This document shows positions 43,551-59,311 of a stretch of DNA of 64,000 bases, in pieces. Under the pieces are notes generated by a model. It had not been told where the DNA came from, did not search any database, and was given only the letters and a program-made list of their open reading frames with translations. The position numbers were made by a program, and so were the translations under genes. Location of the stretch: contig NZ_CP067102.1 in NCBI RefSeq assembly GCF_016616885.1, forward strand, positions 7,902,501 through 7,966,500, given 5' to 3'. Source of the stretch: Bradyrhizobium diazoefficiens. Lineage in GTDB: Bacteria > Pseudomonadota > Alphaproteobacteria > Rhizobiales > Xanthobacteraceae. The first letter of the stretch is position 1. Every line of letters starts with the position of its first letter.

Positions 43551-46500
43551 CTACCAGCTGTAGCGCACGACGCCCTTGCCGGCGTAGGAGCGCGTGACGG
43601 TCGAGAACTCGCCCTCGAAGGTTGCCGACGCAGACCAGCCGTTCAACCAGTTCATCTGCACCGACGCCGTGGTCAGCGCGGAATCGCGCGCCAGTGCTGC
43701 GCCATTCACGACGAAGGCCGATCCCGGCAGCGTCTGGAACACCGCGCCGACCGTGCGATCCGGATTGAAATCATGCGCCCAGGCGGCGCGGCCGCGCAGC
43801 GTCAGCACGCCGCCGCCGGCGGCAAACGATCTGTCGGCGCGCAGGCCGAGCTCGGTGCGGGTGCTGGTCAGGTCCTTGGCGGCATAGTTGAGCGCGAAGG
43901 CGTTGTTGCCGACCACGGCGAATTCCGAATAGCTCGGCAGGTTGAACATTGTGGCCTGGAGCGCGGCATAGGGCGTCAGCCCGATCCACGGCGTCGCCTG
44001 GCGATAGCCGCCTTCGATACGGCCTGAAACGGCGTTGGCATTGAACCGCGCGCGCAGCTGATCGGTGCCGGCGGCTGTGACGATGCGGTTGGTGGTGACA
44101 TCCTGCCAGCCATAGGCCAGCGCAGCCGTGACATAGGCAGGCCCGGCATTGTGGCGAACGAAAGCGCCGGCCTGGAACAGATCGGAGTGGCCCCAGCCAA
44201 GTCCGTTGACGCCGAAGCCGGTGCCGCCGCCGGCGAGCGCGAAACCCGCGACCGTCGCGGGCGAGAAGCGATAGTCGAGACCGACCGCAGTCCCGTAGAC
44301 GCTGCTCGTCGTATTGTTCGAGCCGAGTGCCGCACGGCCGTCGGTGGTCTGCGAGCCGCCGTAGCCCGCCGCCCAGACATCCCAGCGCTGCTCGAATGTC
44401 GGCGATGGCGCCTTGCGCTGGATCGAGGCGAGGGCGTCGCTGGGCCGCTTGCCAGTCGCGGCATAGGCATTCGCGCTGGTCTCGTCCGCATAAGGCGCAG
44501 CACCCGGCGCGCCGCTGCGTCCTGCACCGAACACGTCGGTCAACAGGCCCATGAACAGATTCATCGCATTGAACGTGGTCTGCTGCGATCCCGTTGCGGA
44601 TTCGCCGGAGGCCTGCGTGAGACCGGCGGGCGAAAGGTTCGCCAGCGTCACGGGAAGGCTACCACTGCTGTTGAAATATCGAGTCAAAGCATTGGCGACG
44701 TTCTGCTGATTGATATTGAGACCGCCACCATAATTCAGAGCGAGATCGAGAAATACATTATTCGGGTCGTAGCTTAGGCTGGCCTGGAGATTCGACGAAA
44801 GCCCCGCCACGACCGGATTGAACTTGTCGGGTAACGAGCCCGCAGTCAGGATCGTGTAATGCTTCGCGATCGATCCGGTCGGGACGACCACGACCGTGGC
44901 GCCGCCGGGCGTTGCCGTTCCAACCACGACCGCGATGCCATTGCTCGTGCCAGACACCTGCACCACGTAGCTCGACGTCGATGTGAAAGAGAGATCACCT
45001 GATACGCTGAGCGTCCCGGTTGGGCTACCGGGCGCCAGCGCGCCGCCATTGACGGAGATGGAGCTTCCAACCGTGCCGACGCCGCCAAACGTGCCGCCCG
45101 CCGCGACGCTCACATTGCCGTTGATGGTGCCAGCGAGCAGAAGCGTACCACCGAGCACGTTCCAGTCCTGATTGCCGGTGCCGGTCACGGTCCAGGTCGA
45201 GCTGTCGATCTTGTTGAAGGTCGAGAAGCCGTCGTACTGGAGGCCGGTACCGATCAGGTCGAGGTTGAACGTATCCTTGCCGACGCCGCCAAGCTGGAAC
45301 GTGTCGGTTCCGGATGCCAACACCTGGCCGTTGATGACGCTGCCGGGGCCGACCGTAAGCGTGTTGGAGCCACAGCCGCAGAAGTCGATGGCCACAGCAC
45401 CGAACTCGCTGGCGTTGATGGTACCCGAGTTGAAGACGCTGCCGCCGCCACTTACCACGATGCCTGTGCCGTTAACGCCAACGGTGATGGTGCCGGTGTT
45501 TACGATCTGGTTTGTCGTCGAGAACGCACTCGCATCAATGCCGATGCCGCCTGCGCCCACGGTGATCGTGCCGCTGTTGGTAATGGTGTTGGAATTACCG
45601 AACACGATGATGCCCTCGACACCATCGGCGCCCGTGATCCGCCCGCTGTTGGTGATCGTGGAGGACGAGCCTCCATAGATGATGCCCCCGCCGACCAGGC
45701 CAACGTTGATCGTGCCGCCGTTGGTAACCTTCGAGTCGTCGCCCTGCACGGCAATGCCGACGCCAAAATCGCCGGCCGTGATTCTGCCGAAATTGCTGAC
45801 GGTCTGGACGTCGCCTTGCAGGAAGATGCCGGCGGCGTTCTGCCCGACCGTGATCGTGCCGGTGGCGGTGTTGGTGACCGTGTTGTTGTTGCTGATTGCG
45901 AGAATGCCGCCGGAGAGTCCGGTGGAATCGCCGACCGTGATCGCGCCGGCGTTGGTCACGGTCGAGCCGCTGAACGCGTAGATGCCGATCGAATCGTTGA
46001 CGCCGGCGATCGTGCCCGTCGTGGCATTGGTGATCGTGTTGTTCTGGCCCGCGAAGATGCCCACACCCGACGCGCCGATCGACAGCGCACCGCTGTTGGT
46101 GACGGTGTTGTTGTCGTGAACCGAGATCGCGGCGCCGCCGTCGCCGGTCGTGACCGTTCCGGCATTGGTGATGATATTGTGATCGATCGCCAGGATGCCA
46201 AGACCGTTGTCGAGCACCGTGATCGTAGCGTTGTTGGTCACGGTATTCGAATTTCCGACACCGATGCCGATCAGGCCCGAGCCTGCCGACAGCGTTCCGT
46301 TGTTGGTGACGGTGCTGGAGTCGTTGACGCCAATCGAGACCGTGCCGTTGTCGTTCACGGTCGCGCCCGACAGTACGTTGACAGTGAGGCTGTCGACCCC
46401 GATGCCGGCCTGAAAGCCATCCGTGTCAGTGCCGCTACACGTCACAGTCTGGCCACTTGCGGCCGGATCCGGCGTACAGAGCGCATTGGCTGGCGTCGTC

Positions 46501-46601
46501 CAGAGGCTGAGCCCCAAGACGAGCGCCGATGCGCTGACGAGCGAGGCAGCGCCGTATCGGCGCAGTCGACCCTGCTGCCTCGATGGCCCCTCGCCCCGCA
46601 T
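43551..46601 (-). CDS. Autotransporter with repetitive passenger and C-terminal beta-barrel
   Basis: This encodes 1016 residues. A signal peptide at 1-40 ends TTPANA. The passenger (~40-700) is made of many short repeats built on NTVTNSGTITVG-like units (N-x-x-x-T-N-x-G-x-I-x-x-G), the pattern of a right-handed beta-helix. The C-terminal ~275 residues form the autotransporter barrel, ending VVRYSW with the expected terminal aromatic. It would be exposed on the cell surface and may serve in adhesion or biofilm. GGGGAG lies 6 nt before ATG 46601, which also places the signal correctly; an earlier in-frame ATG at 46724 is unlikely. Confidence 0.88.
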   Translation of the reverse strand: MRGEGPSRQQGRLRRYGAASLVSASALVLGLSLWTTPANALCTPDPAASGQTVTCSGTDTDGFQAGIGVDSLTVNVLSGATVNDNGTVSIGVNDSSTVTNNGTLSAGSGLIGIGVGNSNTVTNNATITVLDNGLGILAIDHNIITNAGTVTTGDGGAAISVHDNNTVTNSGALSIGASGVGIFAGQNNTITNATTGTIAGVNDSIGIYAFSGSTVTNAGAITVGDSTGLSGGILAISNNNTVTNTATGTITVGQNAAGIFLQGDVQTVSNFGRITAGDFGVGIAVQGDDSKVTNGGTINVGLVGGGIIYGGSSSTITNSGRITGADGVEGIIVFGNSNTITNSGTITVGAGGIGIDASAFSTTNQIVNTGTITVGVNGTGIVVSGGGSVFNSGTINASEFGAVAIDFCGCGSNTLTVGPGSVINGQVLASGTDTFQLGGVGKDTFNLDLIGTGLQYDGFSTFNKIDSSTWTVTGTGNQDWNVLGGTLLLAGTINGNVSVAAGGTFGGVGTVGSSISVNGGALAPGSPTGTLSVSGDLSFTSTSSYVVQVSGTSNGIAVVVGTATPGGATVVVVPTGSIAKHYTILTAGSLPDKFNPVVAGLSSNLQASLSYDPNNVFLDLALNYGGGLNINQQNVANALTRYFNSSGSLPVTLANLSPAGLTQASGESATGSQQTTFNAMNLFMGLLTDVFGAGRSGAPGAAPYADETSANAYAATGKRPSDALASIQRKAPSPTFEQRWDVWAAGYGGSQTTDGRAALGSNNTTSSVYGTAVGLDYRFSPATVAGFALAGGGTGFGVNGLGWGHSDLFQAGAFVRHNAGPAYVTAALAYGWQDVTTNRIVTAAGTDQLRARFNANAVSGRIEGGYRQATPWIGLTPYAALQATMFNLPSYSEFAVVGNNAFALNYAAKDLTSTRTELGLRADRSFAAGGGVLTLRGRAAWAHDFNPDRTVGAVFQTLPGSAFVVNGAALARDSALTTASVQMNWLNGWSASATFEGEFSTVTRSYAGKGVVRYSW

Positions 46602-46767
46602 GTCACGCTCCCCATTCCCAGCCAGCTCCGCGGAGGAATTTAGGCCATGAGGAGGCGCCGTAGAACTACGCGCCGCCGGAATGCGTTCGTTTGGCGCACA
46701 ACCGAGACTGAATCCGGCCGCCATGTTGCAACCGCGCCACGGTTTTCAAGGCAAATTGCGGTTCAGG

Positions 46768-46822: not shown

Positions 46823-47863
46823 TCAGTAGTTGGAGGCCGCCGCCTCATTCGGGATGCCGTCGATCGGACACTCGTCAGTCCCCGGCGTCGACCGCGTCAT
46901 CGCCTCGACCATGTCCCGCGTGCCTTCGGGATCGGCGATCCAGTTCTTGTAGAAGTCATAAGGGCAGGCGGCGACACCGCGCGGGCTTTCGCCGGAATTG
47001 ATCATACCGGTGTAGCCGCGGTGGACCAGCTTGTAGAGATGGTTCTGCGACTGGCCGTTACGGCGCGCATCGCGGATCAGATGCTTCGACAGCTGGGCGT
47101 ACTGGATGCCGTACTCCTCCTCGCCGCACTCGCCGAGCGTGCGGCCGTCGAAGCCGATGATCGCGGAGTGACCGAAATAGGAGTAGACGCCGTCGAAGCC
47201 GGCGGCATTGGCGACCGCGACATAGACATTGTTGGCCCAGGCCATCGCCTTTGAAATCAGAATCTGCTGCTCCTTGGCCGGATACATATAGCCCTGGCAG
47301 CGCACGATCAGCTCGGCGCCCTTCATGGCGCAGTCGCGCCAGATCTCGGGAAAATTGCCGTCGTCACAGATGATCAGGCTGACCTTCATGCCCTTCGGGC
47401 CGTCGGAAACGTAGGTGCAATTGCCGGGATACCAGCCTTCGATCGGCACCCACGGCATGATCTTGCGGTACTTTTGAACGATCTCGCCCTTGTCGTTCAT
47501 CAGGATCAGGGTGTTGTAGGGCGCCTTGTGCGGATGCTCCTCGTGCCGCTCGCCGGTGAGCGAGAACACGCCCCACACTTTCGCCTTGCGACAGGCCTCG
47601 GCAAAAATCGCGGTCTCCTCACCGGGCACCGCGGAGGCGGTCTCGTACATCTCCTTGGAGTCGTACATGATGCCCTGCGTGGAGTATTCCGGGAAAATCA
47701 CCAGATCCATACCGGGCAGGCCGGCCTTCATGCCGACGAGCATGTCGCCGATCTTGCGGGCGTTGTCGAGCACCTCGGCCCTGGTGTGCAGTCGGGGCAT
47801 CTTGTAGTTGACCACTGCGACGCCGACGGTGTCGTTGCTGCTGGAAATATCACCGTGAAGCAT
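46823..47863 (-). CDS. amiE: Aliphatic amidase AmiE
   Basis: This encodes 346 residues, the normal AmiE length. AmiE hydrolyses short aliphatic amides (acetamide, propionamide, perhaps formamide) to ammonia and the acid in the cytoplasm. The nitrilase-type catalytic triad is at the canonical numbers: Glu59 (FPEYS), Lys134 (KYRKIMPW) and Cys166 (ICDDGNFPE). It is the last gene of the urt-fmd-ami operon, 45 nt after fmdB. It fits an amide-nitrogen role for the cluster, since the ammonia it releases can be assimilated directly. Confidence 0.94.
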
Positions 47864-47908: not shown

Positions 47909-48286
47909 TTAGTGGCTGATCATCCAGGGCCGCGCCGTCGGAAAGCCCTTGGCGCCGCTCCTGGTCTTGGTCACCAGCCGCGCGGGCTTCTTCCTGTCCG
48001 ACGTGCCCTTGTCCTTGACCGTCTTGCCTGACGAGCAGCAGCCGCAACCGGGACCGTGCGAGGCCTGGTATTGCGCGAGCGTCTGCGGCGCGTGCGTGCT
48101 GCGTTCGTTGACGGCATGGGCTTTTCGCTTCTCTGCCGGCATGCAGAAGAAATTCGGCGCGGTCAGGATGACGCGCGGCGCCATCGTCTCGCAGTGCGGA
48201 CAGTTTTGCGGATCGTCACATTCCGCCATCGGCCGCAGGTCCTTGAACGGACCGCAGTCGTCACAAAGATATTCATAGACCGGCAT
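47909..48286 (-). CDS. fmdB: FmdB-family zinc-ribbon protein
   Basis: This encodes 125 residues. The N-terminal zinc ribbon has four cysteines (C8, C11, C29, C32; MPVYEYLCDDCG, then NCPHCE), the FmdB/CxxC_CxxC_SSSS family. A basic tail has a second cluster GCGCCSSGK. FmdB has been reported as a regulator linked to formamidase expression. It sits directly after formamidase in the same operon. ATG 48286 starts the conserved MPVYEY; a start ten codons earlier is possible. Confidence 0.85.
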   Translation of the reverse strand: MPVYEYLCDDCGPFKDLRPMAECDDPQNCPHCETMAPRVILTAPNFFCMPAEKRKAHAVNERSTHAPQTLAQYQASHGPGCGCCSSGKTVKDKGTSDRKKPARLVTKTRSGAKGFPTARPWMISH

Positions 48287-48399: not shown

Positions 48400-49629
48400 T
48401 TACCTATCCGGCGAGATCGGCATCTGGATATCGCCGGTGATGTGCTTGATGGGGCCTGCCGCCGACGGCATCACGTCGAAGTCGAAGATCTCTGTCGGTA
48501 ACCACAGCGTGGCGCAGGCATTGGGCACGTCGACCACACCGGAGATGTGGCCCTGGCACGGCGCGGTGCCGAGGATCGAATAGGCCTGTGCGCCGGAGTA
48601 GCCGAACTTTTTCAAATACTCGATGGCGTTGAGGCAGGCCTGACGATAGGCGATATGGACGTCGAGATAATGCTGCTTGCCGGCTTCATCCACCGAGATG
48701 CCTTCGAAAATCAGATAGTCCTTGTAGTTCGGCGTGATCGGCGACGGCTTGAAGATCGGATTCTTGATGCCGTATTTCGACATGCCGTCCTTGATCACCT
48801 CGACCTTCAGATGCAGCCAGCCGGCCATTTCGATCGCACCGCAGAAGGTGATCTCGCCGTCGCCTTGGCTGAAGTGCAGATCGCCCATCGAGAGACCGGC
48901 GCCGGGCACATAGACCGGGAAGTAGATTTTTGAGCCGCGGGAGAGATCCTTGATGTCGCAATTGCCGCCATGCTCGCGCGGCGGCACGGTACGCGCGCCC
49001 TCGGCGCCGATCTTGGCCTTGACGTCTCCCTTGGCGCGGCCGCCATGGGCGGTCGCCGCAAACGGCGGGTTGGCGAGGCCGGGCACGCGGGTCGGGTTGG
49101 TCGAGATCAGCTCGGCCTCGCGCTTGTTCCAGGTCTCCAGCATCTTCGGATCGGGCAGACAGCCGATCAGGCCGGGATGGATGAGTCCGGCGAAATTCAC
49201 ACCGGGGACGTGGCGGGACGAAGTGTAGAGACCCTTGATGTCCCAGATCGACTTCTGCGCCAGCGGGAAGTGGTCGGTGAGGAAGCCGCCGCCATTCTGC
49301 TTGGAGAAGAAGCCGTTGAAGCCCCAGAGGCTCTCCTTCATCGGGCCGACGTCGAGCAGGTCGACGACGAGGAGGTCGCCGGGCTCGGCGCCCTTGACGC
49401 CGATCGGGCCGGAGAGGAAGTGCACGATCGAGAGATCGATGTCGCGCACGTCATCGGCGGAATCGTTGTTCTTGATGAAGCCGCCGGTCCAGTCATAGGT
49501 CTCGATGATGAAATCGTCGCCGGGATTGACCCAGGCCACGATCGGGATGTCGGGGTGCCAGCGGTTATGCACCATGTCATTTTCGTAAGCCGACTTGGTG
49601 AGATCGACCTTGATCAGTGTCTCTGGCAT
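48400..49629 (-). CDS. fmdA: Formamidase
   Basis: This encodes 409 residues of the FmdA/AmdA acetamidase-formamidase family, which hydrolyses formamide to formate and ammonia. Conserved parts include HNRWHPDIP (residues 21-29), GPIGVKGAEPGDLL, REHGGNCDIKDLSRGSK (a metal-site region near residue 220), VPGAGLSMGDLHFSQGDGE, and a C-terminal CQGHISGVVDVPNACATLWLP. It is cytoplasmic. It follows urtE by 28 nt in the amide/urea operon, so the transporter probably brings in the amide it cleaves. Confidence 0.93.
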   Translation of the reverse strand: MPETLIKVDLTKSAYENDMVHNRWHPDIPIVAWVNPGDDFIIETYDWTGGFIKNNDSADDVRDIDLSIVHFLSGPIGVKGAEPGDLLVVDLLDVGPMKESLWGFNGFFSKQNGGGFLTDHFPLAQKSIWDIKGLYTSSRHVPGVNFAGLIHPGLIGCLPDPKMLETWNKREAELISTNPTRVPGLANPPFAATAHGGRAKGDVKAKIGAEGARTVPPREHGGNCDIKDLSRGSKIYFPVYVPGAGLSMGDLHFSQGDGEITFCGAIEMAGWLHLKVEVIKDGMSKYGIKNPIFKPSPITPNYKDYLIFEGISVDEAGKQHYLDVHIAYRQACLNAIEYLKKFGYSGAQAYSILGTAPCQGHISGVVDVPNACATLWLPTEIFDFDVMPSAAGPIKHITGDIQMPISPDR

Positions 49630-49657: not shown

Positions 49658-50347
49658 TTAGACGGACAGATATTTCGAGACCTGCACGGCATCGACGCTG
49701 TCGCGCGGGTCGTCGCGCACGATCTCGCCATTCTCGATGACCAGGACGCGGTCGGCGATATCGAGCGCAAAGCTCAGGACCTGCTCGGACACGACGATCG
49801 ACAGGCCCTTTTCGTCGCGGATGCGCTTCAGCGTCCGCGCCATGTCCTTGATGATCGACGGCTGGATGCCTTCGGTCGGCTCGTCCAACAGCAGCACCCT
49901 CGGCTTGGTCGCGAGTGCGCGGGCGATGGCGAGCTGCTGTTGCTGACCGCCGGAAAGATTGCCGCCGCGGCGGCCCTTCATCTCCAGCAGCACCGGAAAG
50001 AGCTCGTAGATGTCGCCGGGCACCTCAGTGCCGCCGGAGACGACGAGCCCGGTCTCGATATTCTCCTTCACCGTCATGGTGGAGAAGATCATGCGGCCCT
50101 GCGGCACATAGGCGAGCCCCTTGGCGACGCGCGCATAGCTCGGCAAGCCGCCGAGCTCGGCGCCGTCCATTGTCACCGAGCCGCTCTTGGCCGGAAGGAT
50201 GCCCATCAGGGACTTCATCAGCGTGGTCTTGCCCATGCCGTTGCGGCCCATGATCGCAACGATCTCGTTGGGCGCGACCTTGACGTTGAGCCCGTGCAGC
50301 ACCTCGCTCTGGCCGTAGGCGACGTGGAGATCCGAAATAGCCAGCAT
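49658..50347 (-). CDS. urtE: Urea/amide ABC transporter ATPase UrtE
   Basis: This encodes 229 residues: Walker A GRNGMGKTT, signature LSGGQQQQLAIARAL, Walker B LLLDEPTEGIQPS, and the LivF-like opening LAISDLHVAYGQSEVLHG. The glutamate-rich EGIQPS ending is typical of UrtE and separates it from LivF. It is the second ATPase of the importer. It is separated from urtD by 249 bp that contain a repeat element. Confidence 0.9.
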   Translation of the reverse strand: MLAISDLHVAYGQSEVLHGLNVKVAPNEIVAIMGRNGMGKTTLMKSLMGILPAKSGSVTMDGAELGGLPSYARVAKGLAYVPQGRMIFSTMTVKENIETGLVVSGGTEVPGDIYELFPVLLEMKGRRGGNLSGGQQQQLAIARALATKPRVLLLDEPTEGIQPSIIKDMARTLKRIRDEKGLSIVVSEQVLSFALDIADRVLVIENGEIVRDDPRDSVDAVQVSKYLSV

Positions 50348-50596: not shown

Positions 50597-51352
<756 letters not shown>

Positions 51353-51362
51353 GATGATCTCC

Positions 51363-52505
51363 TCACTCGGCTGGGGCGCCGTCGGCGACCGAGCTGTCGG
51401 TCCAGCCTTCGGGTTTGGGTTTGCGCGACGAGATCAGGCGATCGATGCGCGGCTGCACATAGTCGCCCCAGATCCCGGCAAGGCCGTTCGGGAAAGCGAG
51501 AACCACGGCGATGAACAAACCGCCAAGGCCGAACAGCCACAATTCAGGAAACGTCTCCGACAGGCTGGTCTTGGCGAAATTGACCAGCAGCGTGCCGTAG
51601 ATGGCACCCAGAATGGAAAGTCGGCCACCGACCGCTGTGTAGATCACCATTTCGATCGACGGCACGATGCCGACGAAGGACGGCGACATGAAGCCGACAT
51701 TGAGCGCGAACATGGCGCCGCCGATGGCGGCGAACACGGCGGCGATGCAGAAGGCGAAGATCTTGAAGTTCGCGACGCTGTAGCCGGAGAAGCGGACCCG
51801 GTCCTCCTTCTCGCGCATCGCCACCAGGATGCGTCCAAGCTTGGAGTGCCGGATGAACTGCGCGATCATGATGCAGACGAGCAGGCATCCGACCTCGAAG
51901 AAGTACAGCACGACCTTGGCGTGATCGGGCCTGATGTCCCACCCCTTCAAGGTGCGTAGATCGGTCATGCCGTTGATGCCGCCGGTGTAGCCCTGCTGTC
52001 CCACGATCAGGATGGTAAGGATGGCCGCGACCGCTTGCGTGATGATCGCGAAATAGGTGCCGCCGACCCGGCGCTTGAACATCGCTGTGCCGATGATCAG
52101 GGCGAAGATGCCGGGCACCAGGATGATGGCGGCGATGGTGAAGGTGAGGCTGTGAAACGGCTTCCAGAACAGCGGCAGTGACGTGATCTGATTCCAGTCC
52201 ATGAAATCGGGAATGCCGGGGGTCGACTGGATCTTGGTGTTCTCCACGCTCGATGCCTCGAGCTTGAGGAACATCGCCATGCAGTAGCCGCCGAGCCCGA
52301 AGAACACGCCCTGGCCGAGGCTCAAGATGCCGCCATAACCCCAGCAGATCACCAGCCCCAGCGCGACGAAGGCATAGGTCAGATATTTTGCGACCAGGTT
52401 GAGCCTGAAGACGTCGAGCGTGAGCGGCAGCACCACCACCAGGAAGACCGCGAGCACCAGAATTCCGATGAGCTCCGATCGATTGAAGAACCGATTGTCG
52501 GTCAT
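51363..52505 (-). CDS. urtC: Urea/amide ABC transporter permease UrtC
   Basis: This encodes 380 residues with about ten hydrophobic segments, of the LivM type. Marks are [35 protein letters not shown]-like sequence near residue 45-80, [15 protein letters not shown] near 170, and the permease EAA-type loop [17 protein letters not shown] near 230. It pairs with UrtB to form the inner-membrane channel. Confidence 0.9.
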   Translation of the reverse strand: [380 protein letters not shown]

Positions 52506-52523: not shown

Positions 52524-53450
52524 TCACTTGCGGACCTTGAGGGCGAACAGCCCTTGCGGCCGCAGCATCAGGATTCCGACAACGGCGAGCAGCGTCAGCA
52601 CCTTGGCCATCGAGCCCGACATGAAGAACTCGAGGGTGGATTGGGTCTGCGAGATCGAGAAGGCCGAGGCGATGGTGCCGAGCAGGCTCGCAGCGCCGCC
52701 GAACACGACCACCAGGAACGTGTCGACGATGTAGAGCTGTCCGGAGGTCGGCCCGGTCGAGCCGATCATCGTGAAGGCGCTGCCGGCGACGCCGGCGATG
52801 CCGCAGCCAAGACCGAAGGTGTAGCGGTCGACCTTCTCGGTGTTGATGCCGACCGCGCCGGCCATGATGCGGCTCTGCACGACAGCGCGCACCTGGCGGC
52901 CCCAGCGCGACTTGTACATCACGTAGGCGACGCCGATGGTGATCAGGACGGTGAGGCACATGACGAAGACACCGTTGATCGGCACTTCGATGCTGTCGGT
53001 GACGTGCAGCGAGCCGAGCATCCATTGCGGGAGCTCGACGCCGACTTCACGCGCGCCGAACACGGAGCGATACGCCTGCTGCAACATCAGGCTGAGGCCC
53101 CAGGTCGCAAGCAGCGTATCGAGTGGGCGCTTGTAGAGATGCCGTATCAGCACCCATTCCACCAACATCCCCAGCGCACCGGATGCGACAAAGGCCAGGA
53201 TCATCGCGAGGAAGAAGTAGCCGCTGAACAGGCTCGGCAAATAGGACTGGAAGAAATTCGATGTCAGCCAGGTGACGTAGGCCCCGAGGATCATGAACTC
53301 GCCATGGGCCATGTTGATGACGCCCATCTGGCCGAAGATGATCGCAAGACCGAGCGCCATCAGCACATAGACAGAGAACAGGATCAGTCCTGCAAAACCC
53401 TGCATGACGAAGATGGAGCCAAGGTCACCAAGCGAGTAGTCGCCGAACAT
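52524..53450 (-). CDS. urtB: Urea/amide ABC transporter permease UrtB
   Basis: This encodes 308 residues with eight or so membrane helices, of the LivH type. Conserved parts include GLAIIFGQMGVINMAHGEFMILGAY-like sequence (residues ~30-55), LATWGLSLMLQQAYR, and the EAA-type loop QSRIMAGAVGINTEKVDR near 195. It lacks the long N-terminal extension of some UrtB proteins. GGAGG lies 6 nt upstream of ATG 53450. Confidence 0.9.
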   Translation of the reverse strand: MFGDYSLGDLGSIFVMQGFAGLILFSVYVLMALGLAIIFGQMGVINMAHGEFMILGAYVTWLTSNFFQSYLPSLFSGYFFLAMILAFVASGALGMLVEWVLIRHLYKRPLDTLLATWGLSLMLQQAYRSVFGAREVGVELPQWMLGSLHVTDSIEVPINGVFVMCLTVLITIGVAYVMYKSRWGRQVRAVVQSRIMAGAVGINTEKVDRYTFGLGCGIAGVAGSAFTMIGSTGPTSGQLYIVDTFLVVVFGGAASLLGTIASAFSISQTQSTLEFFMSGSMAKVLTLLAVVGILMLRPQGLFALKVRK

Positions 53451-53597: not shown

Positions 53598-54857
53598 TTA
53601 CTGGTAGCCCTTGGGGAACGGATCCGGCTCGACGAGATCGGCGGTCTCGTAGATCAGCTCGAACTGGCCATCGAGCTTGGCGCGGCCCACTCGGGTCTTC
53701 GACCAGAGGTGATGATTTTCGTGGATGCGCACATAGCCTTCCGGAGCGCCCTTGAACTCGACGCCCGGCGAAGCCGCCGCGATCTTGTCGACGTCGAAGG
53801 AGCCGGCTTTCTCGACCGTCAACTTCCACAGCCACGGGCCAAGATAGGCAGCCTGGGTGACGTCTCCAATGACAGTCTTCTCGCCCCACATCTTCTTGAA
53901 CGCGGGCACGAAGGCCTTGTTGTTGGGATTGTCGAGCGACTGGAAGTACTTCATGCAGGCATAGGCGCCCGCGATGTTCTCGCCGCCGATGCCGTCGATT
54001 TCGTCCTCGGTCACCGAGATCGTCAACAGCGCCTGCTTGGAGAGGTCGATGCCTGCGGCCTTGAGCTGCTTATAGAAGGCGACGTTGGAGCCGCCGACGA
54101 CGTCGGTGAAGATCACGTCGGGCTTGGTCAGCTTGATCTTGTTGATGACCGAGTTGAACTGGGTGTTGCCGAGCGGATAATACTCCTCGCCGACGACCTT
54201 GCCCTTCAGCACGTTCTCGACGTGCTTGCGCGCGATCTTGTTCGAGGTGCGCGGCCAGATGTAGTCGGAGCCGATGAAGAAGAACGACTTCGCGCCCTTT
54301 TCCTTCGCGATCCAGTTCAGGCCGGCGAGAATCTGCTGGGTCGCCTCCTGGCCGGTGTAGATCACGTTCTTGGACTGCTCGAGGCCTTCATAGAAGGTCG
54401 GGTAGTAGAGCATGCCGTTGTACTGCTCGACGACTGGCAGCACCGCCTTGCGCGAGGCCGAGGTCCAGCAGCCCATGATCGCCGCGACCTTGTCGTTGAC
54501 GAGCAGCTTCTTGGCCTTCTCCGCGAAGGTTGGCCAGTCGCTGGCGCCGTCTTCCTGGATGAACTTGATCTTGCGGCCGAGCACGCCGCCGGCGGCGTTG
54601 ATCTGCTCGATGGCGAGCTTCTCGGCCTCGATCGAACCGGTTTCGGAGATGGCCATGGTGCCGGTCGCCGAATGCAGGATGCCGACCGTCACCTCGGTGT
54701 CGGTGACCGCGAGACCGGTCGTATTGACCGCCGAGGTCGCAGGCGCCTGTGCAAATGACGCCCGCGGCAGCATCGTAATGGCCGGCAGCGCCGCCATTCC
54801 CATCAATAATTTGCGCCGGAGCGGCGACAACAGGCCCTTGTTTGCTTCGTCTGACAT
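53598..54857 (-). CDS. urtA: Urea/short-amide ABC transporter substrate-binding protein UrtA
   Basis: This encodes 419 residues. An export signal with an R-R pair (RRKLLMGMAALPAITML) ends at ASFA. The mature protein is a type I binding fold: VTVGILHSATGTMAISETG, the UrtA/AmiC-like opening, then WTSASRKAVLPVVEQYNGMLYYPTFYEG (residues ~145-172) and WPRTSNKIARKHVENVLKG. UrtA binds urea; relatives bind short amides. Because formamidase and amidase share its operon and no urease is here, its ligand may well be an amide. It is first in the operon, divergent from the kinase gene. ATG 54857 was chosen by the signal; GGGG lies upstream. Confidence 0.9.
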   Translation of the reverse strand: MSDEANKGLLSPLRRKLLMGMAALPAITMLPRASFAQAPATSAVNTTGLAVTDTEVTVGILHSATGTMAISETGSIEAEKLAIEQINAAGGVLGRKIKFIQEDGASDWPTFAEKAKKLLVNDKVAAIMGCWTSASRKAVLPVVEQYNGMLYYPTFYEGLEQSKNVIYTGQEATQQILAGLNWIAKEKGAKSFFFIGSDYIWPRTSNKIARKHVENVLKGKVVGEEYYPLGNTQFNSVINKIKLTKPDVIFTDVVGGSNVAFYKQLKAAGIDLSKQALLTISVTEDEIDGIGGENIAGAYACMKYFQSLDNPNNKAFVPAFKKMWGEKTVIGDVTQAAYLGPWLWKLTVEKAGSFDVDKIAAASPGVEFKGAPEGYVRIHENHHLWSKTRVGRAKLDGQFELIYETADLVEPDPFPKGYQ

Positions 54858-54917: not shown

Positions 54918-54959
54918 TGCACCGCAAGCATACGCAAGATCGCGTATACTGCACCGCAA
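54918..54959. promoter_or_regulatory. Candidate operator in the urtA / kinase divergent promoter
   Basis: A 6-bp inverted repeat, ATACGC (54930-54935) and GCGTAT (54942-54947) with a 6-bp spacer, lies between two direct repeats TGCACCGCAA at 54918-54927 and 54950-54959. The direct repeats are 32 bp apart, about three helical turns. This layout suggests cooperative binding of a LuxR-type or similar dimer. TGCACC also resembles an NtrC half-site. Confidence 0.6.
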
Positions 54960-55026: not shown

Positions 55027-58000
55027 GTGGCAGGGCGGCAGCGAATAGACCGCGTCAGGCGCCAGTACAATCAATGGGTCGCCAACCAGACGCTGGAAGA
55101 CTACGCGCTGCGCTTCACCGCCAAAAGCGCGCGGCGCTGGTCCGCCGCTCGCGTCGCCAACACCGCAATCGGTGCGATTTCCTTTCTGGTGCTGGAGGCG
55201 ATCGGCGGCACCATCACCCTCAATTACGGCGTCACCAACGCAGCCGCCGCGATCCTCGTCGTCTCCGCCATCATCTTCTTCTGCGGCGTGCCAATTGCCT
55301 ATTATGCAGCCAAATGCGGCATCGACATTGACCTGCTCACGCGCGGCGCCGGCTTCGGCTACATCGGCTCGACCGTCACCTCGCTGATCTACGCCTCCTT
55401 CACTTTCATCTTTTTTGCGGTCGAGGCGGTGATCCTGGCGACCGCGCTGGAGATGTGCTTGGGCATCCCCCGCCCGATCGGCTACCTCATCAGCGCCGTC
55501 GCGATCATCCCGCTCGTGACCTATGGCATCACGCTGATCAGCCGCTTCCAGCTTTGGACGCAACCGCTCTGGATCGTCCTGCACATCCTGCCCTTTGCCG
55601 CGATCGCCTGGGCCAGCCCGCACTCCTTCACGGAATGGCACAAATTCGCCGGCGAGCACGGCGATCTCGGCGGCCATTTCGACCTGTTGCTGTTCGGTGT
55701 CGCGTCCTCCGTGGTGTTCTCGCTGGTGGCGCAGATCGGCGAGCAGGTCGACTTCCTACGATTTCTGCCGCGCGACCGCCGCACCTCAAGGGCGTCGTGG
55801 TGGATCGCGCTGATGAGCGCGGGGCCGGGCTGGATCGTGCTCGGCGCGCTGAAGCTTCTGGCCGGCTCGTTCCTCGCCTTCTTCGCGCTCAGCCACGGCG
55901 TGCCGCCCGAGGAGGCGGCCGAGCCCGCTCATATGTATCTCGTGGCCTTTCGCTACGTGCTGTCGGACCCGGACCTCGCGCTGGCGTTGACCGGCTTCTT
56001 CGTGGTGTTGTCGCAGATCAAGATCAACGTCACCAACGCCTATGCCGGCTCGATCGCCTGGTCGAATTTCTTCTCGCGCCTGACGCACAGCCATCCCGGA
56101 CGCGTGGTCTGGCTGGTGTTCAACGTGATGGTGGCGCTGCTGCTGATGGAGATCGGCGTCTACAAGGCGCTGGAGCAGACGCTTGCGCTCTACTCCAACG
56201 TCGCGATCGCCTGGGTCGGTGCGCTGGTGTCCGATCTCGTCATCAACAAGCCGCTTGGCCTGCGACCGCCGCAGATGGAGTTCAAGCGCGCGCATCTCTA
56301 CGACATCAATCCGGTCGGCGTCGGCGCCATGACGCTTGCGATCATCGTGTCAATCGCGGCGTTCTACGGCCTGTTCGGCCCGACCATGAAGGCGCTCGCC
56401 GCCTTCGTCGCACTGACGGTGGCCTTCGTCACCGCGCCTGTTATCGCCTGGCTGACCGACGGGAAGTACTACATCGCGCGCAAGCCGAAGCGGAGCTGGG
56501 CCAATATCGAGTCGATCCAGTGCTGTATCTGCGAGCACAGCTTCGAACCCGAGGACATGACCTCCTGTCCGGCCTATGCCGGCCCAATCTGCTCGCTGTG
56601 CTGCTCGCTCGATGCCCGCTGCCACGATCTCTGCAAGCCGCATGGCCGCGCGCAGGTGCAGTTCGCCGACGCGCTCGGCAGAATTTTGCCACAGCCGATC
56701 TATCAGCGGATCAACTCGCAGTTCGGTCACTATATCGGGGTGTTCGTTGTCTCCGCCGGCCTTGTCGCGCTGGTGCTGGGACTGATCTATCTCCAGACCT
56801 CCGCGAGCGTGCATGGCGAGAACTCACTCGTCTCAAACGTGCTTTGGAAGGTGTTCTTCTCGCTCAGCATCATCATCGGTGTGGTTGCCTGGCTGTTCGT
56901 GCTGGCGCAGCAGAGCCGCCGCGCCGCAGAGGCCGAGACGCGACGGCAGACCGCGCTGCTGATCCAGGAGATCGACGCGCACAAGCGCACCGACGCCGAG
57001 CTCCAGCGCGCCAAGGAGGTCGCCGAGTCCGCCAACCTCGCCAAGAGCCGTTATGTGGTGGGACTGAGCCATGAGCTGCGCTCGCCGCTGAACGCGATCA
57101 GCGGCTACGCGCAGCTCCTGGAGCAGGATTCGACGTTGAACACCAAGCCGCGCGACCAGGTCCGCGTCGTCCGCCGCAGCGCCGACCACCTCTCCGGCCT
57201 GATCGACGGCATCCTGGACATTTCCAAGATCGAAGCGGGGCGGCTGTATCTTTCCCGCGATGAAGTCCGCTTGAGCGAATTCCTCGATCAGCTCGTCGGC
57301 ATGTTCCGCCTCCAGGCCGGCGCCAAAGGCATCGACTTCGTGTTCAGGCGATCGGCGACATTGCCGACGGTGGTCTATGCCGACGAGAAGCGGCTGCGTC
57401 AGGTGCTGATCAACCTGTTGTCCAACGCCATCAAATTCACCCAGACTGGTAGCGTGCAGTTTATCGTGCACTATCGCAGCCCCGTCGCCGAGTTCGAGGT
57501 GACCGACACCGGTCCCGGTATCCAGGGCGACGATCTCGAACGCATCTTCGCGCCCTTTGAGCGCGGCGCGCTCGGGGTGTCGCAGCCGCAGACGGGCACC
57601 GGACTCGGGCTCACCATCAGCCGGCTGCTCGCCGGCGTGATGGGCGGCGACATCAAGGTCGCCAGCACCGTTGGCCGCGGCAGCACGTTCAAGATGAAGA
57701 TGCTGCTATCGGAGGTCAGCAACCCCAGGCGCATCGCGCCGGTGGAGGCGCCGATCTCCGGCTATCACGGCACGCGCAAGACCATCCTGATCACCGACGA
57801 CGATCCCGTGCATCGCGATCTCCTGCGCGAAGTGCTGACGCCGCTCGGCTTCATCCTGCTGAGCGCCGCCGACGGGCCAGGCTGTCTGGCGCTGGCACAG
57901 CATTGCCGGCCCGACCTGTTCCTGCTCGACATCTCGATGCCGGGCATGGACGGCTGGACCGTGGCGGAACAGCTGCGCGCAGACGGCCACCACCAGGCCC

Positions 58001-58401
58001 GTATCCTGATGGTGTCGGCGAGCGCACTGGAGGCGCACGGCGCACCGCTCGCCCAGCCCTTCCACGACGGCTATCTGATGAAGCCAATCGACATCCCGCG
58101 ACTGCTGGAAACCATTCGCCAGCTGCTCAAGATCGAATGGCAATACGGCTCCGACGAAATCGTCGTCGTGCCGCTGTGGCATCCCGAGAGCGGCTCGCGG
58201 CCGCCGGTCCGGCACATCGAGGCGCTGATCGGGCTCGGCCAGATCGGCTACGTCAAGGGCATCCAGCTCAAGCTGGACGAGATCGGTAATGAGCACCCGG
58301 AGCATGCCGACTTCGTCGCCGAAATGCGATCGCTGGTCGATCGCTTCGATCTGGACCAATACATGACAACATTGAAAACACTGCATGCTTATGAGCATTG
58401 A
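55027..58401 (+). CDS. Hybrid histidine kinase with an NCS1 symporter-like sensor domain
   Basis: This encodes 1124 residues. Residues ~40-475 hold about 12 membrane helices resembling the NCS1 purine/cytosine/allantoin permease family. Residues 499-536 are a nine-cysteine module (C499, C500, C502, C514, C522, C525, C526, C532, C536), likely a metal-binding site. Two more helices follow (~566-590, ~605-628), then a coiled coil (~633-675). The HisKA domain has His682 in SHELRSPLNA, and the HATPase domain has NLLSNAIKF, DTGPGIQG and GTGLGLTIS. The REC domain has Asp968 and Lys1019; a ~100-residue tail is of unknown use. The start is GTG 55027. It overlaps the response regulator gene by 11 nt. 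It may sense amides, urea or a nucleobase. Confidence 0.85.
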   Translation: MAGRQRIDRVRRQYNQWVANQTLEDYALRFTAKSARRWSAARVANTAIGAISFLVLEAIGGTITLNYGVTNAAAAILVVSAIIFFCGVPIAYYAAKCGIDIDLLTRGAGFGYIGSTVTSLIYASFTFIFFAVEAVILATALEMCLGIPRPIGYLISAVAIIPLVTYGITLISRFQLWTQPLWIVLHILPFAAIAWASPHSFTEWHKFAGEHGDLGGHFDLLLFGVASSVVFSLVAQIGEQVDFLRFLPRDRRTSRASWWIALMSAGPGWIVLGALKLLAGSFLAFFALSHGVPPEEAAEPAHMYLVAFRYVLSDPDLALALTGFFVVLSQIKINVTNAYAGSIAWSNFFSRLTHSHPGRVVWLVFNVMVALLLMEIGVYKALEQTLALYSNVAIAWVGALVSDLVINKPLGLRPPQMEFKRAHLYDINPVGVGAMTLAIIVSIAAFYGLFGPTMKALAAFVALTVAFVTAPVIAWLTDGKYYIARKPKRSWANIESIQCCICEHSFEPEDMTSCPAYAGPICSLCCSLDARCHDLCKPHGRAQVQFADALGRILPQPIYQRINSQFGHYIGVFVVSAGLVALVLGLIYLQTSASVHGENSLVSNVLWKVFFSLSIIIGVVAWLFVLAQQSRRAAEAETRRQTALLIQEIDAHKRTDAELQRAKEVAESANLAKSRYVVGLSHELRSPLNAISGYAQLLEQDSTLNTKPRDQVRVVRRSADHLSGLIDGILDISKIEAGRLYLSRDEVRLSEFLDQLVGMFRLQAGAKGIDFVFRRSATLPTVVYADEKRLRQVLINLLSNAIKFTQTGSVQFIVHYRSPVAEFEVTDTGPGIQGDDLERIFAPFERGALGVSQPQTGTGLGLTISRLLAGVMGGDIKVASTVGRGSTFKMKMLLSEVSNPRRIAPVEAPISGYHGTRKTILITDDDPVHRDLLREVLTPLGFILLSAADGPGCLALAQHCRPDLFLLDISMPGMDGWTVAEQLRADGHHQARILMVSASALEAHGAPLAQPFHDGYLMKPIDIPRLLETIRQLLKIEWQYGSDEIVVVPLWHPESGSRPPVRHIEALIGLGQIGYVKGIQLKLDEIGNEHPEHADFVAEMRSLVDRFDLDQYMTTLKTLHAYEH

Positions 58402-59311
58402 GACGAAAAAGCGCGACATCGCGCTGGTTGTCGACGACTCTCCCGAGACGCTGCGGCTGCTCACCGATGCGCTCGACGGCGCCGGGATGACGGTGATGGT
58501 GGCGCTCGACGGCGCCAGCGCGATGCGCATCGTCGACCAGATCACGCCCGACATCGTGCTGCTCGACGCCGTAATGCCCGGGCTGGACGGCTTCGAGACC
58601 TGCCGCCGGCTCAAGCGCGACGCGGACCTTGCCAATGTCCCCGTCATTTTCATGACGGGCCTCGCCGAAACGGAGCACATCGTGCGCGGGCTGGAAGCCG
58701 GCGGCGTCGACTACGTGACCAAGCCGATTGTGATCGAGGAGATGCTGGCGCGCATCCGCGTCCATCTCGGCAATGCGCGGCTGACCCAGAGCGCGCGCAC
58801 CGCGCTCGACGTCTCCGGCCGCTTCCTGTTCGCGATCAACCGCCAGGGCCACATCCTCTGGGCGACGCCGCAGGCGCAAAAACTGCTGGCCGATCATCAC
58901 GGCGCACAGACCGACGATTTCATCCTGCCGCCGTCGCTGCTGCAATGGCTGGAGCAGGCGAAGGGCAAGGGCAGCGCGAAGTCGCAAGCGGCATCCCTGC
59001 CCGACAATCCGCAACTCCGGCTTTATTTCATGGGCGAAACCGCGCCGAACGAGTTCCTGCTACGTCTCTCCAGAGAATCCGGAACGTCGCTACCGCCCGA
59101 ATTCACCAGCGAGCTCGGCCTCACCACCCGCGAGGGCGAGGTGCTGGCCTGGCTCAGCAAGGGCAAGACCAACCGCGACATCGCGCAAATTTTGGGATTG
59201 AGCCCTCGCACGGTCGACAAGCACCTGGAGCAGATTTACGCCAAGCTCGGTGTGGAGAACCGGACGGCCGCGGCGGCGATTGCCACGAATGCGACGAGGC
59301 GGAATTCGTAA
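58391..59311 (+). CDS. Response regulator: REC, PAS-like and LuxR-type DNA-binding domains
   Basis: This encodes 306 residues. The REC domain (~10-125) has the acidic pair D15-D16, the phospho-acceptor Asp59 in LLDAVMPGLDG, and Lys111. A middle segment (~138-200) begins VSGRFLFAINRQGHILWATP and looks like a PAS fold. The C-terminal LuxR/FixJ-type HTH (~235-295) has LTTREGEVLAWLSKGKTNRDIA and SPRTVDKHLEQIYAKLGV. ATG 58391 was chosen; an ATG two codons earlier is possible. It overlaps the kinase gene and is the obvious partner and the likely activator of the divergent urt operon. Confidence 0.88.
   Translation: MSIETKKRDIALVVDDSPETLRLLTDALDGAGMTVMVALDGASAMRIVDQITPDIVLLDAVMPGLDGFETCRRLKRDADLANVPVIFMTGLAETEHIVRGLEAGGVDYVTKPIVIEEMLARIRVHLGNARLTQSARTALDVSGRFLFAINRQGHILWATPQAQKLLADHHGAQTDDFILPPSLLQWLEQAKGKGSAKSQAASLPDNPQLRLYFMGETAPNEFLLRLSRESGTSLPPEFTSELGLTTREGEVLAWLSKGKTNRDIAQILGLSPRTVDKHLEQIYAKLGVENRTAAAAIATNATRRNS

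Follow-up and report, generated by a model that had tools for sequence, protein, structure and literature searches.

A candidate sensing system for urea and short-chain amides in Bradyrhizobium: an NCS1-fold hybrid kinase, its LuxR-type partner and a conserved palindrome

What does a sensor kinase perceive when its input half has the shape of an entire transporter and its gene stands back to back with an operon for the use of urea and amides? The question is raised by a stretch of 64,000 nucleotides of Bradyrhizobium diazoefficiens (hereafter, the window), which belongs to a genome of 8.09 Mb in one contig (G000). In this window, a hybrid sensor histidine kinase, whose nearest relatives are found in Bradyrhizobium, and a response regulator diverge from the genes urtA, urtB, urtC, urtD, urtE, fmdA, fmdB and amiE, which are arranged in this order on the opposite strand. 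It is probable, in our judgement, that the kinase and the regulator make up a two-component system for urea and short-chain amides, acting via a palindrome that lies between the two operons. The parts of the system are as follows.

55027..58401, plus strand: hybrid sensor histidine kinase with an NCS1-fold input half, 1124 aa (open frame, domain search, model).
55090..56463, plus strand: NCS1-fold 12-helix domain, kinase residues 22-479 (AlphaFold2 model aligned to CodB).
56521..56634, plus strand: eight-cysteine module, residues 499-536 (conserved cysteine pattern).
56719..56886, plus strand: two extra predicted helices, probably membrane-spanning, residues 565-620, leading into the signalling helix (model helices 81-110 and 115-135).
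57043..57240, plus strand: HisKA with phospho-acceptor H682 (domain search and alignment).
57382..57702, plus strand: HATPase_c (domain search; N800 and D827 conserved).
57784..58119, plus strand: receiver domain (REC) with D968 (domain search and alignment).
58385..59311, plus strand: response regulator REC-middle-GerE of the LuxR type; the start may be 58391 (open frame, Pfam).
54930..54947, no strand assigned: palindrome ATACGC-N6-GCGTAT, predicted operator of the regulator (motif search across loci).

The first-pass annotation had described an entire NCS1-type half of 12 helices joined to HisKA, HATPase and REC domains, a LuxR-type partner overlapping the kinase by 11 nt, and a divergent urtABCDE-fmdA-fmdB-amiE operon; the fold model and the domain search confirmed the architecture, and the gene order was likewise confirmed, with the 11 shared nucleotides obtained if the second ATG of the regulator is used. 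In an AlphaFold2 model of the input half (predicted local distance difference test, 73.4; predicted template modelling score, 0.70), residues 10-467, corresponding to kinase residues 22-479, align to CodB, and the best matches among solved structures to this NCS1/LeuT-type 12-helix fold are CodB and Mhp1, which share the fold but are free transporters. A Pfam search with kinase residues 1-640 returned no family (PF02133 was absent at E<=1), and a search of the whole window genome with the PF02133 profile returned no match. The same profile matches 12 of 49 members tested, of which 18 are free-standing (the matched ones were not told apart), and a free-standing relative 31% identical to the input half exceeds its cut-off.

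The first line of evidence is the company that the kinase keeps. Searches for the input half turned it up in 20 of 289 genomes of Alphaproteobacteria, 53 of 398 of Pseudomonadota (including a 48-residue fragment in G503), 12 of 229 from the class of G432 and 45 of 199 from the order of the window, these four samples being overlapping. Among the Alphaproteobacteria, UrtA scored over the cut-off in all 20 kinase carriers versus 43 of the 269 non-carriers (Fisher p 3.9e-15, uncorrected for relatedness). The matches in the Alphaproteobacteria and the Pseudomonadota, minus the window's own and the G503 fragment, gave 72 kinase loci, of which 70 have the regulator adjacent to the kinase and 66 have urea or amide genes beside it; the predicted phylogenetic linkage to such genes thus withstood the check. 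A divergent urtA of the window's type is present at 42 of the 72; among the 41 counted first, fmdA occurs in 40 and amiE in 18 within the stretch examined, and the 42nd, L156, carries both fmdA and amiE once its missing flank is added. Another 15 loci have a urtA of a different type (37-41% identical), none of them with fmdA and five with urease genes, while three hold urtB-E with urtA beyond the stretch, four hold urease genes only and two hold fmdA only. Urease alpha, UreG and UreE were confirmed by NCBIfam in one example each; the operon types themselves were assigned with fixed tblastn thresholds, and distances were taken from the start of the match rather than the start codon. None of the urea or amide genes searched for was found at the last six loci, two of which (L187 and L193) are cut off by a contig edge. 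Similarly, in the best 80 of 470 loci, 77 of them titled Bradyrhizobium, a divergent urtA was found at 79, fmdA at 76, amiE at 57 and the regulator at 79 within the stretch examined, and one locus with full flanks (L054) gave no urtA or fmdA match.

Moreover, the kinase appears to have changed partners repeatedly. On a tree of 71 kinases (the window and 70 loci, with L187 and L193 left out) and four free-standing relatives, obtained by a quick search with long branches and with only the Shimodaira-Hasegawa-like approximate likelihood ratio test for support, six operon labels change 13 times versus 30.2 when shuffled; L156 was still labelled 'none' in this count and was corrected for the next one. 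Between kinases beside urt-fmd operons (43) and those beside another urt type or urease (22), at least six changes are required; these last two labels were joined, and the distinction between them may merely reflect what fits in 20 kb. Five genomes (G365, G428, G492, G513 and G636) contain two kinases each, at separate loci of these kinds. Since the receptor is re-used beside operons with nothing in common but urea-like chemistry, it most likely senses that chemistry, and because the partner can be another urt type or urease, the signal would be urea or urea-like amides rather than formamide alone. The earlier suggestion of urea, formamide or a related amide as the signal is supported by the linkage, yet its tie to urt-fmd in particular did not hold at every locus.

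The second line of evidence is the palindrome. A conserved block in the shared promoter region of Bradyrhizobium contains the copy listed above, and 69 different sites together give the consensus ATACGTCA-at-TGACGTAT. Across 38 divergent promoters, the commonest perfect five-letter inverted repeats, with spacers of 0-12 allowed, were ATACG-N8-CGTAT (16) and TACGT-N6-ACGTA (15). Of 65 discovery loci, 34 carry the strict pattern TACGY-N6-RCGTA upstream of the kinase, with 39 copies in 35.7 kb versus 17 in 1,227 kb elsewhere; 14 of the 17 lie 72-212 bp upstream of a match to urtA, fmdA or a porin (the exceptions being in L144, L145 and L161), some of them at loci where urtA and the kinase are 2-6 kb apart or share a strand. 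Nine more discovery loci hold the strict site elsewhere only, which leaves 43 of 65 with at least one site and 22 with none. The free positions are also symmetric (outer A 0.71, inner C 0.62, inner A 0.61); as both strands were counted, this symmetry is partly imposed, and the evidence is the base bias itself.

The pattern was then applied to 31 new loci from unused genomes of the class of G432 and the order of the window, with L269 and L275 excluded as already used. These loci are partly close kin (L277-L281 belong to one genus, two pairs share a genus or genome, and the order sample is from the window's own order). The strict site was found upstream of the kinase in 19 of the 31, namely in 18 of 21 with a divergent urtA and 1 of 10 without, and in none of the remaining 134.7 kb; when the half-sites were permuted, 22 of 23 patterns gave 0 and one gave 1 on the same set. 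Among the 43 genomes with UrtA and no kinase, 0 of the 40 urtA promoters used had a strict site (G096, G154 and G252 were left out). In the best 80 of the 470 loci, the site was present in 73, counted over a fixed span, so that loci whose flanks are shorter may be missed. The idea that the urt operon is the target, as first proposed, gains support from this conserved palindrome in the shared promoter. The genome of the window contains two exact copies versus 60 of the reversed control pattern; the second copy, at 6172003, was rejected as a target, as it lies inside an open reading frame that resembles, by eye, a permease of an ATP-binding cassette (ABC) transporter. In L136, L138 and L140, which belong to one genus, the palindrome lies upstream of the kinase-regulator pair and no urea or amide gene was found nearby.

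The operon facing the kinase, in which all five Urt subunits exceed their NCBIfam cut-offs, consists of the following genes.

53598..54857, minus strand: urtA, binding protein of a urea/short-chain-amide ABC transporter; likely start ATG at 54857 (TIGR03407, 538.5 bits).
52524..53450, minus strand: urtB (TIGR03409, 402.4 bits).
51363..52505, minus strand: urtC (TIGR03408, 426.8 bits).
50597..51352, minus strand: urtD (TIGR03411, 381.2 bits).
49658..50347, minus strand: urtE (TIGR03410, 327.1 bits).
48400..49629, minus strand: fmdA, formamidase (NF045496, 755.9 bits).
47909..48286, minus strand: presumably fmdB, a small Cys-rich protein of 125 aa, named from gene order.
46823..47863, minus strand: amiE, aliphatic amidase (NF009802, 720.6 bits).

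Next to amiE lies a gene for a 1057-aa protein with an autotransporter beta-domain (window 43551-46724, minus strand). A second UrtA of the same genome (G000 C1:1295605-1296702) has a higher score, 560.9 bits, and no palindrome upstream.

In the proposed mechanism, the NCS1-fold half would bind a small urea-type amide from the outside, and the change would reach the kinase core by way of the cysteine module and the two extra helices; the core would in turn phosphorylate the regulator. The regulator could then bind the palindrome between the operons and activate urtABCDE-fmdAB-amiE together with its own genes. The phosphorylation step is suggested by the catalytic residues of a hybrid kinase: H682, N800 and D827 are present in all 66 kinases of an alignment that covers the window's own and those of 65 of the 72 loci (leaving out L187, L193, L194 and L196-L199), and D968 in 64 of 66, with a gap in L185 and L188. 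The regulator is of the NarL/LuxR type (PF00072, 4.5e-27; PF00196, 1e-18), and its DNA-binding domain is best kept, with a mean identity to the window's regulator of 68% for GerE, 63% for REC and 38% for the middle part over 63 loci, those numbered below L194 in which the regulator was matched; the recognition-helix stretch (SPRTVNKHLE) is much alike in most of 12 regulators compared, from loci of both urt types. Variants of the kinase also occur: L185 (8002-10656) and L188 (8166-10847) encode an NCS1-Cys kinase without a receiver, beside a separate REC-HisKA-HATPase protein, with fmdA-fmdB near and no LuxR regulator found, and in the longer kinases of L189-L192 the match breaks after the last transporter helix, so that an extra stretch precedes the cysteine module.

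Binding of the ligand may proceed without sodium. The kinase residues K332-I333 align with T278/T279 of CodB in transmembrane helix 8 (TM8), which we take to be the Thr/Ser pair of the Na2 site, with T278 as a sodium ligand; the pair is not kept, and lysine is found in 71 of 71 kinases and isoleucine in 70 of 71, counted over the window and the same 70 loci as in the tree. Similarly, in the preprint on CbrA, K196 fills the sodium site and its protonation state alters transporter motion in simulations (PMC13022988). The placement of K332 at the CodB sodium site, together with K196 in CbrA, leads to the expectation of sodium-independent binding.

Several observations weigh against this account. 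The position of K332 at the sodium site depends on a single profile alignment at 21% identity. L136, L138, L140 and L142, with both flanks present, have none of the searched urea or amide genes within 20 kb. The 22 discovery loci without a strict site include every urease-only locus (four) and every urtB-E locus (three), although L156, also among the 22, has a site upstream of fmdA in its added flank. Moreover, no strict site was found at the urtA promoter of 19 other urtA genes of kinase carriers; the two strict sites about 1.4 kb upstream of the other urtA in L220 and L221, of one genus, correspond to the porin site already counted in L131 and L133. Look-alikes at such urtA genes, from two genera, have two mismatches in L204, L206, L208, L210 and L212 and three in L211, and are not clearly commoner than in the 40 controls (one mismatch in L260, two in L244). 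A genome-wide urea regulon was accordingly rejected for the Alphaproteobacteria tested; as the unlinked urtA promoters are without the site, it would be a local promoter switch. The sign of regulation may also be the opposite of that proposed, with the regulator repressing its targets. Finally, the ligand is not readable from the pocket, because the positions aligned with the base contacts of CodB have changed.

Among the alternatives, the best placed is a true transceptor, in which the NCS1 half imports the amide while signalling and is proton-coupled via the lysine, as has been reported of CbrA with histidine; this is possible, if on the doubtful side. It draws on the full NCS1 fold with the invariant charged residues E57, E133 and K332, and on the SLC5 domain of CbrA, which has K196 in its Na2 site and is described in the preprint as proton-driven (PMC13022988). 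However, a dedicated ABC transporter for such compounds adjoins the kinase, and three kinase-invariant positions differ from the 18 free-standing relatives (E57 in TM1 for F/Y, K276 for V/T/N/I and F125 for N), which fits a specialisation for sensing. E57 is found in 71 of 71 kinases, E133 (TM3) is invariant in kinases and free-standing relatives alike, and the residue aligned with K332 is R in 18 of 18 of these relatives.

An unlikely alternative is that the kinase binds a ureide, a nucleobase or some other nitrogen compound that gives urea when broken down, the operon being induced by anticipation. NCS1 transporters are generally known to carry cytosine, hydantoins, allantoin and similar compounds, and purine and ureide breakdown can yield urea; yet the urt-fmd loci, as counted above, carry formamidase in 40 of 41 cases and amidase in 18 of 41 within the stretch examined, and a purine pathway needs neither. 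The comparison of substrate residues proposed at the outset bears on this point in part. The base contacts of CodB, which we take to be F33, Q105, W108 and N275, align with F53, T126, F129 and S329 of the kinase, and the phenylalanine alone is kept; the changed contacts, which would fit a ligand other than a nucleobase, do not reveal which one. The sodium-site residues of CodB are likewise not kept in the kinase alignment. The pocket is nearly identical in both groups of kinases (E57, F53, T126, E133 and K332 in 71 of 71, F129 in 60 and S329 in 55), and no examined pocket position is among the 22 columns most specific to urt-fmd or urea-linked kinases, which also speaks against this alternative.

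It is very unlikely that the pair merely travels with the operon and controls something else, the palindrome being bound by another regulator. The 22 of 65 kinase stretches without a strict site would allow this, as would the Methylophilus methylotrophus cluster, which has a putative positive regulator, by order FmdB (PMC10781810). On the other side stand the 0 of 40 kinase-less urtA promoters versus 18 of 21 new kinase loci with a divergent urtA, and the site kept upstream of the kinase in L136, L138 and L140 though no urt gene was found near.

The cysteine module is the best-kept segment of the kinase, with a mean identity to the window kinase of 74%, compared with 64% for the transporter half, 62% for HisKA, 56% for HATPase and 45% for REC. 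Its pattern, C-x2-C-x11-C-x7-C-x2-CC-x5-C-x3-C, is found in 71 of 71 kinases scanned (the 72 loci less L187), and the module probably binds a metal, to judge from the cysteines. It has no Pfam match and no significant match among solved folds or sequences; Foldseek gave insignificant matches (E >= 0.55) with PHD/RING-like names on top, and in its own genome the kinase alone matches well, with three further stretches at E 0.17 to 0.34. Least probable of the alternatives is that the transporter half serves only to anchor the kinase in the membrane while the module senses a metal or redox signal. The eight cysteines kept throughout and the high identity of the module speak for this; the transporter half, with its many invariant polar residues and a conservation level with that of HisKA and above those of HATPase and REC, speaks against it.

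Two kinds of neighbouring gene deserve mention. Methyl-accepting chemotaxis proteins were found near the kinase at L167 (1416-3443) and L142 (4134-6164) by Pfam, and at L151, L165, L169, L178 and L183 by clustering; these may be chemoreceptors for urea or amides. A porin of the Porin_O_P/ExtI type, distantly FmdC-like, occurs at L131, L133, L137, L144, L145 and L176, and in the first three it is preceded by the palindrome at a distance of 117-212 bp.

The preferred reading, a two-component system for urea and short-chain amides, has partial precedents. CbrA of Pseudomonas (SLC5-STAC-PAS-kinase) is likewise a whole LeuT-fold transporter fused to a kinase, with a lysine in the sodium site (PMC13022988). 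It appears to differ in its SLC5, STAC and PAS parts, where the present kinase has an NCS1 fold, the cysteine module and two helices, and its ligand is histidine. Its partner, CbrB, is not known to be of the LuxR type. Transporter-fused kinases of the SLC5-STAC kind are also found in CrbS/CrbR and RpuS/RpuR (PMC5715377, PMC9100948), and CrbR is a LuxR-family regulator that acts on an inverted repeat at the genes for using the compound (PMC5715377; PMC9100948). In contrast to the present kinase, CrbS and RpuS have SLC5 domains, serve acetate or pyruvate genes and go with another repeat (ACTU, e.g., TACTACCATCGTCGAAT). The ammonium sensor kinase of Kuenenia also joins a transporter domain for a nitrogen compound to a kinase (PMC5764959). 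It differs in its Amt fold and in coming from an anammox bacterium. It goes by the name Ks-Amt5. On the side of the operon, the fmd cluster of M. methylotrophus (fmdCABDEF), of which distant FmdC relatives, the porins above, stand at some kinase loci, is reportedly induced by formamide and urea, and this would fit a single sensor for both; the review passage on it names a putative positive regulator and no sensor, and 'two-component' and 'histidine kinase' have 0 occurrences in this review (PMC10781810).

Transporter-fused kinases are therefore already known, as SLC5-STAC kinases (CbrA, CrbS, RpuS) and as an ammonium-transporter kinase. Public annotation names proteins such as the present one 'signal transduction histidine kinase/purine-cytosine permease-like protein', and no paper on an NCS1-kinase, the kinase-regulator pair or the palindrome was found among the matches listed in the openly licensed PMC literature; as far as found, the NCS1-kinase architecture is present in databases but, within the literature searched, unstudied, and the palindrome ATACGTCA-at-TGACGTAT is a new finding of the present analysis.

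Bacterial receptors for urea or small amides outside the cell are, to our knowledge, few, and the analysis puts forward candidates for the sensor, the regulator and the DNA site of such a response. If the reading is true, NCS1 joins the short list of transporter families turned into kinase input domains, and the lysine at the sodium site, as in CbrA, suggests a separate origin of this feature in the NCS1 kinases. With confidence leaning only slightly towards it, membrane sensors derived from NCS1 permeases for urea and its isosteres may form a widespread, undescribed class of receptor with a sodium-mimicking lysine, a relay module that binds metal and an 18-bp operator of its own, re-used for urt-fmd, other urt and urease operons, which could be a general urea receptor of many Pseudomonadota.

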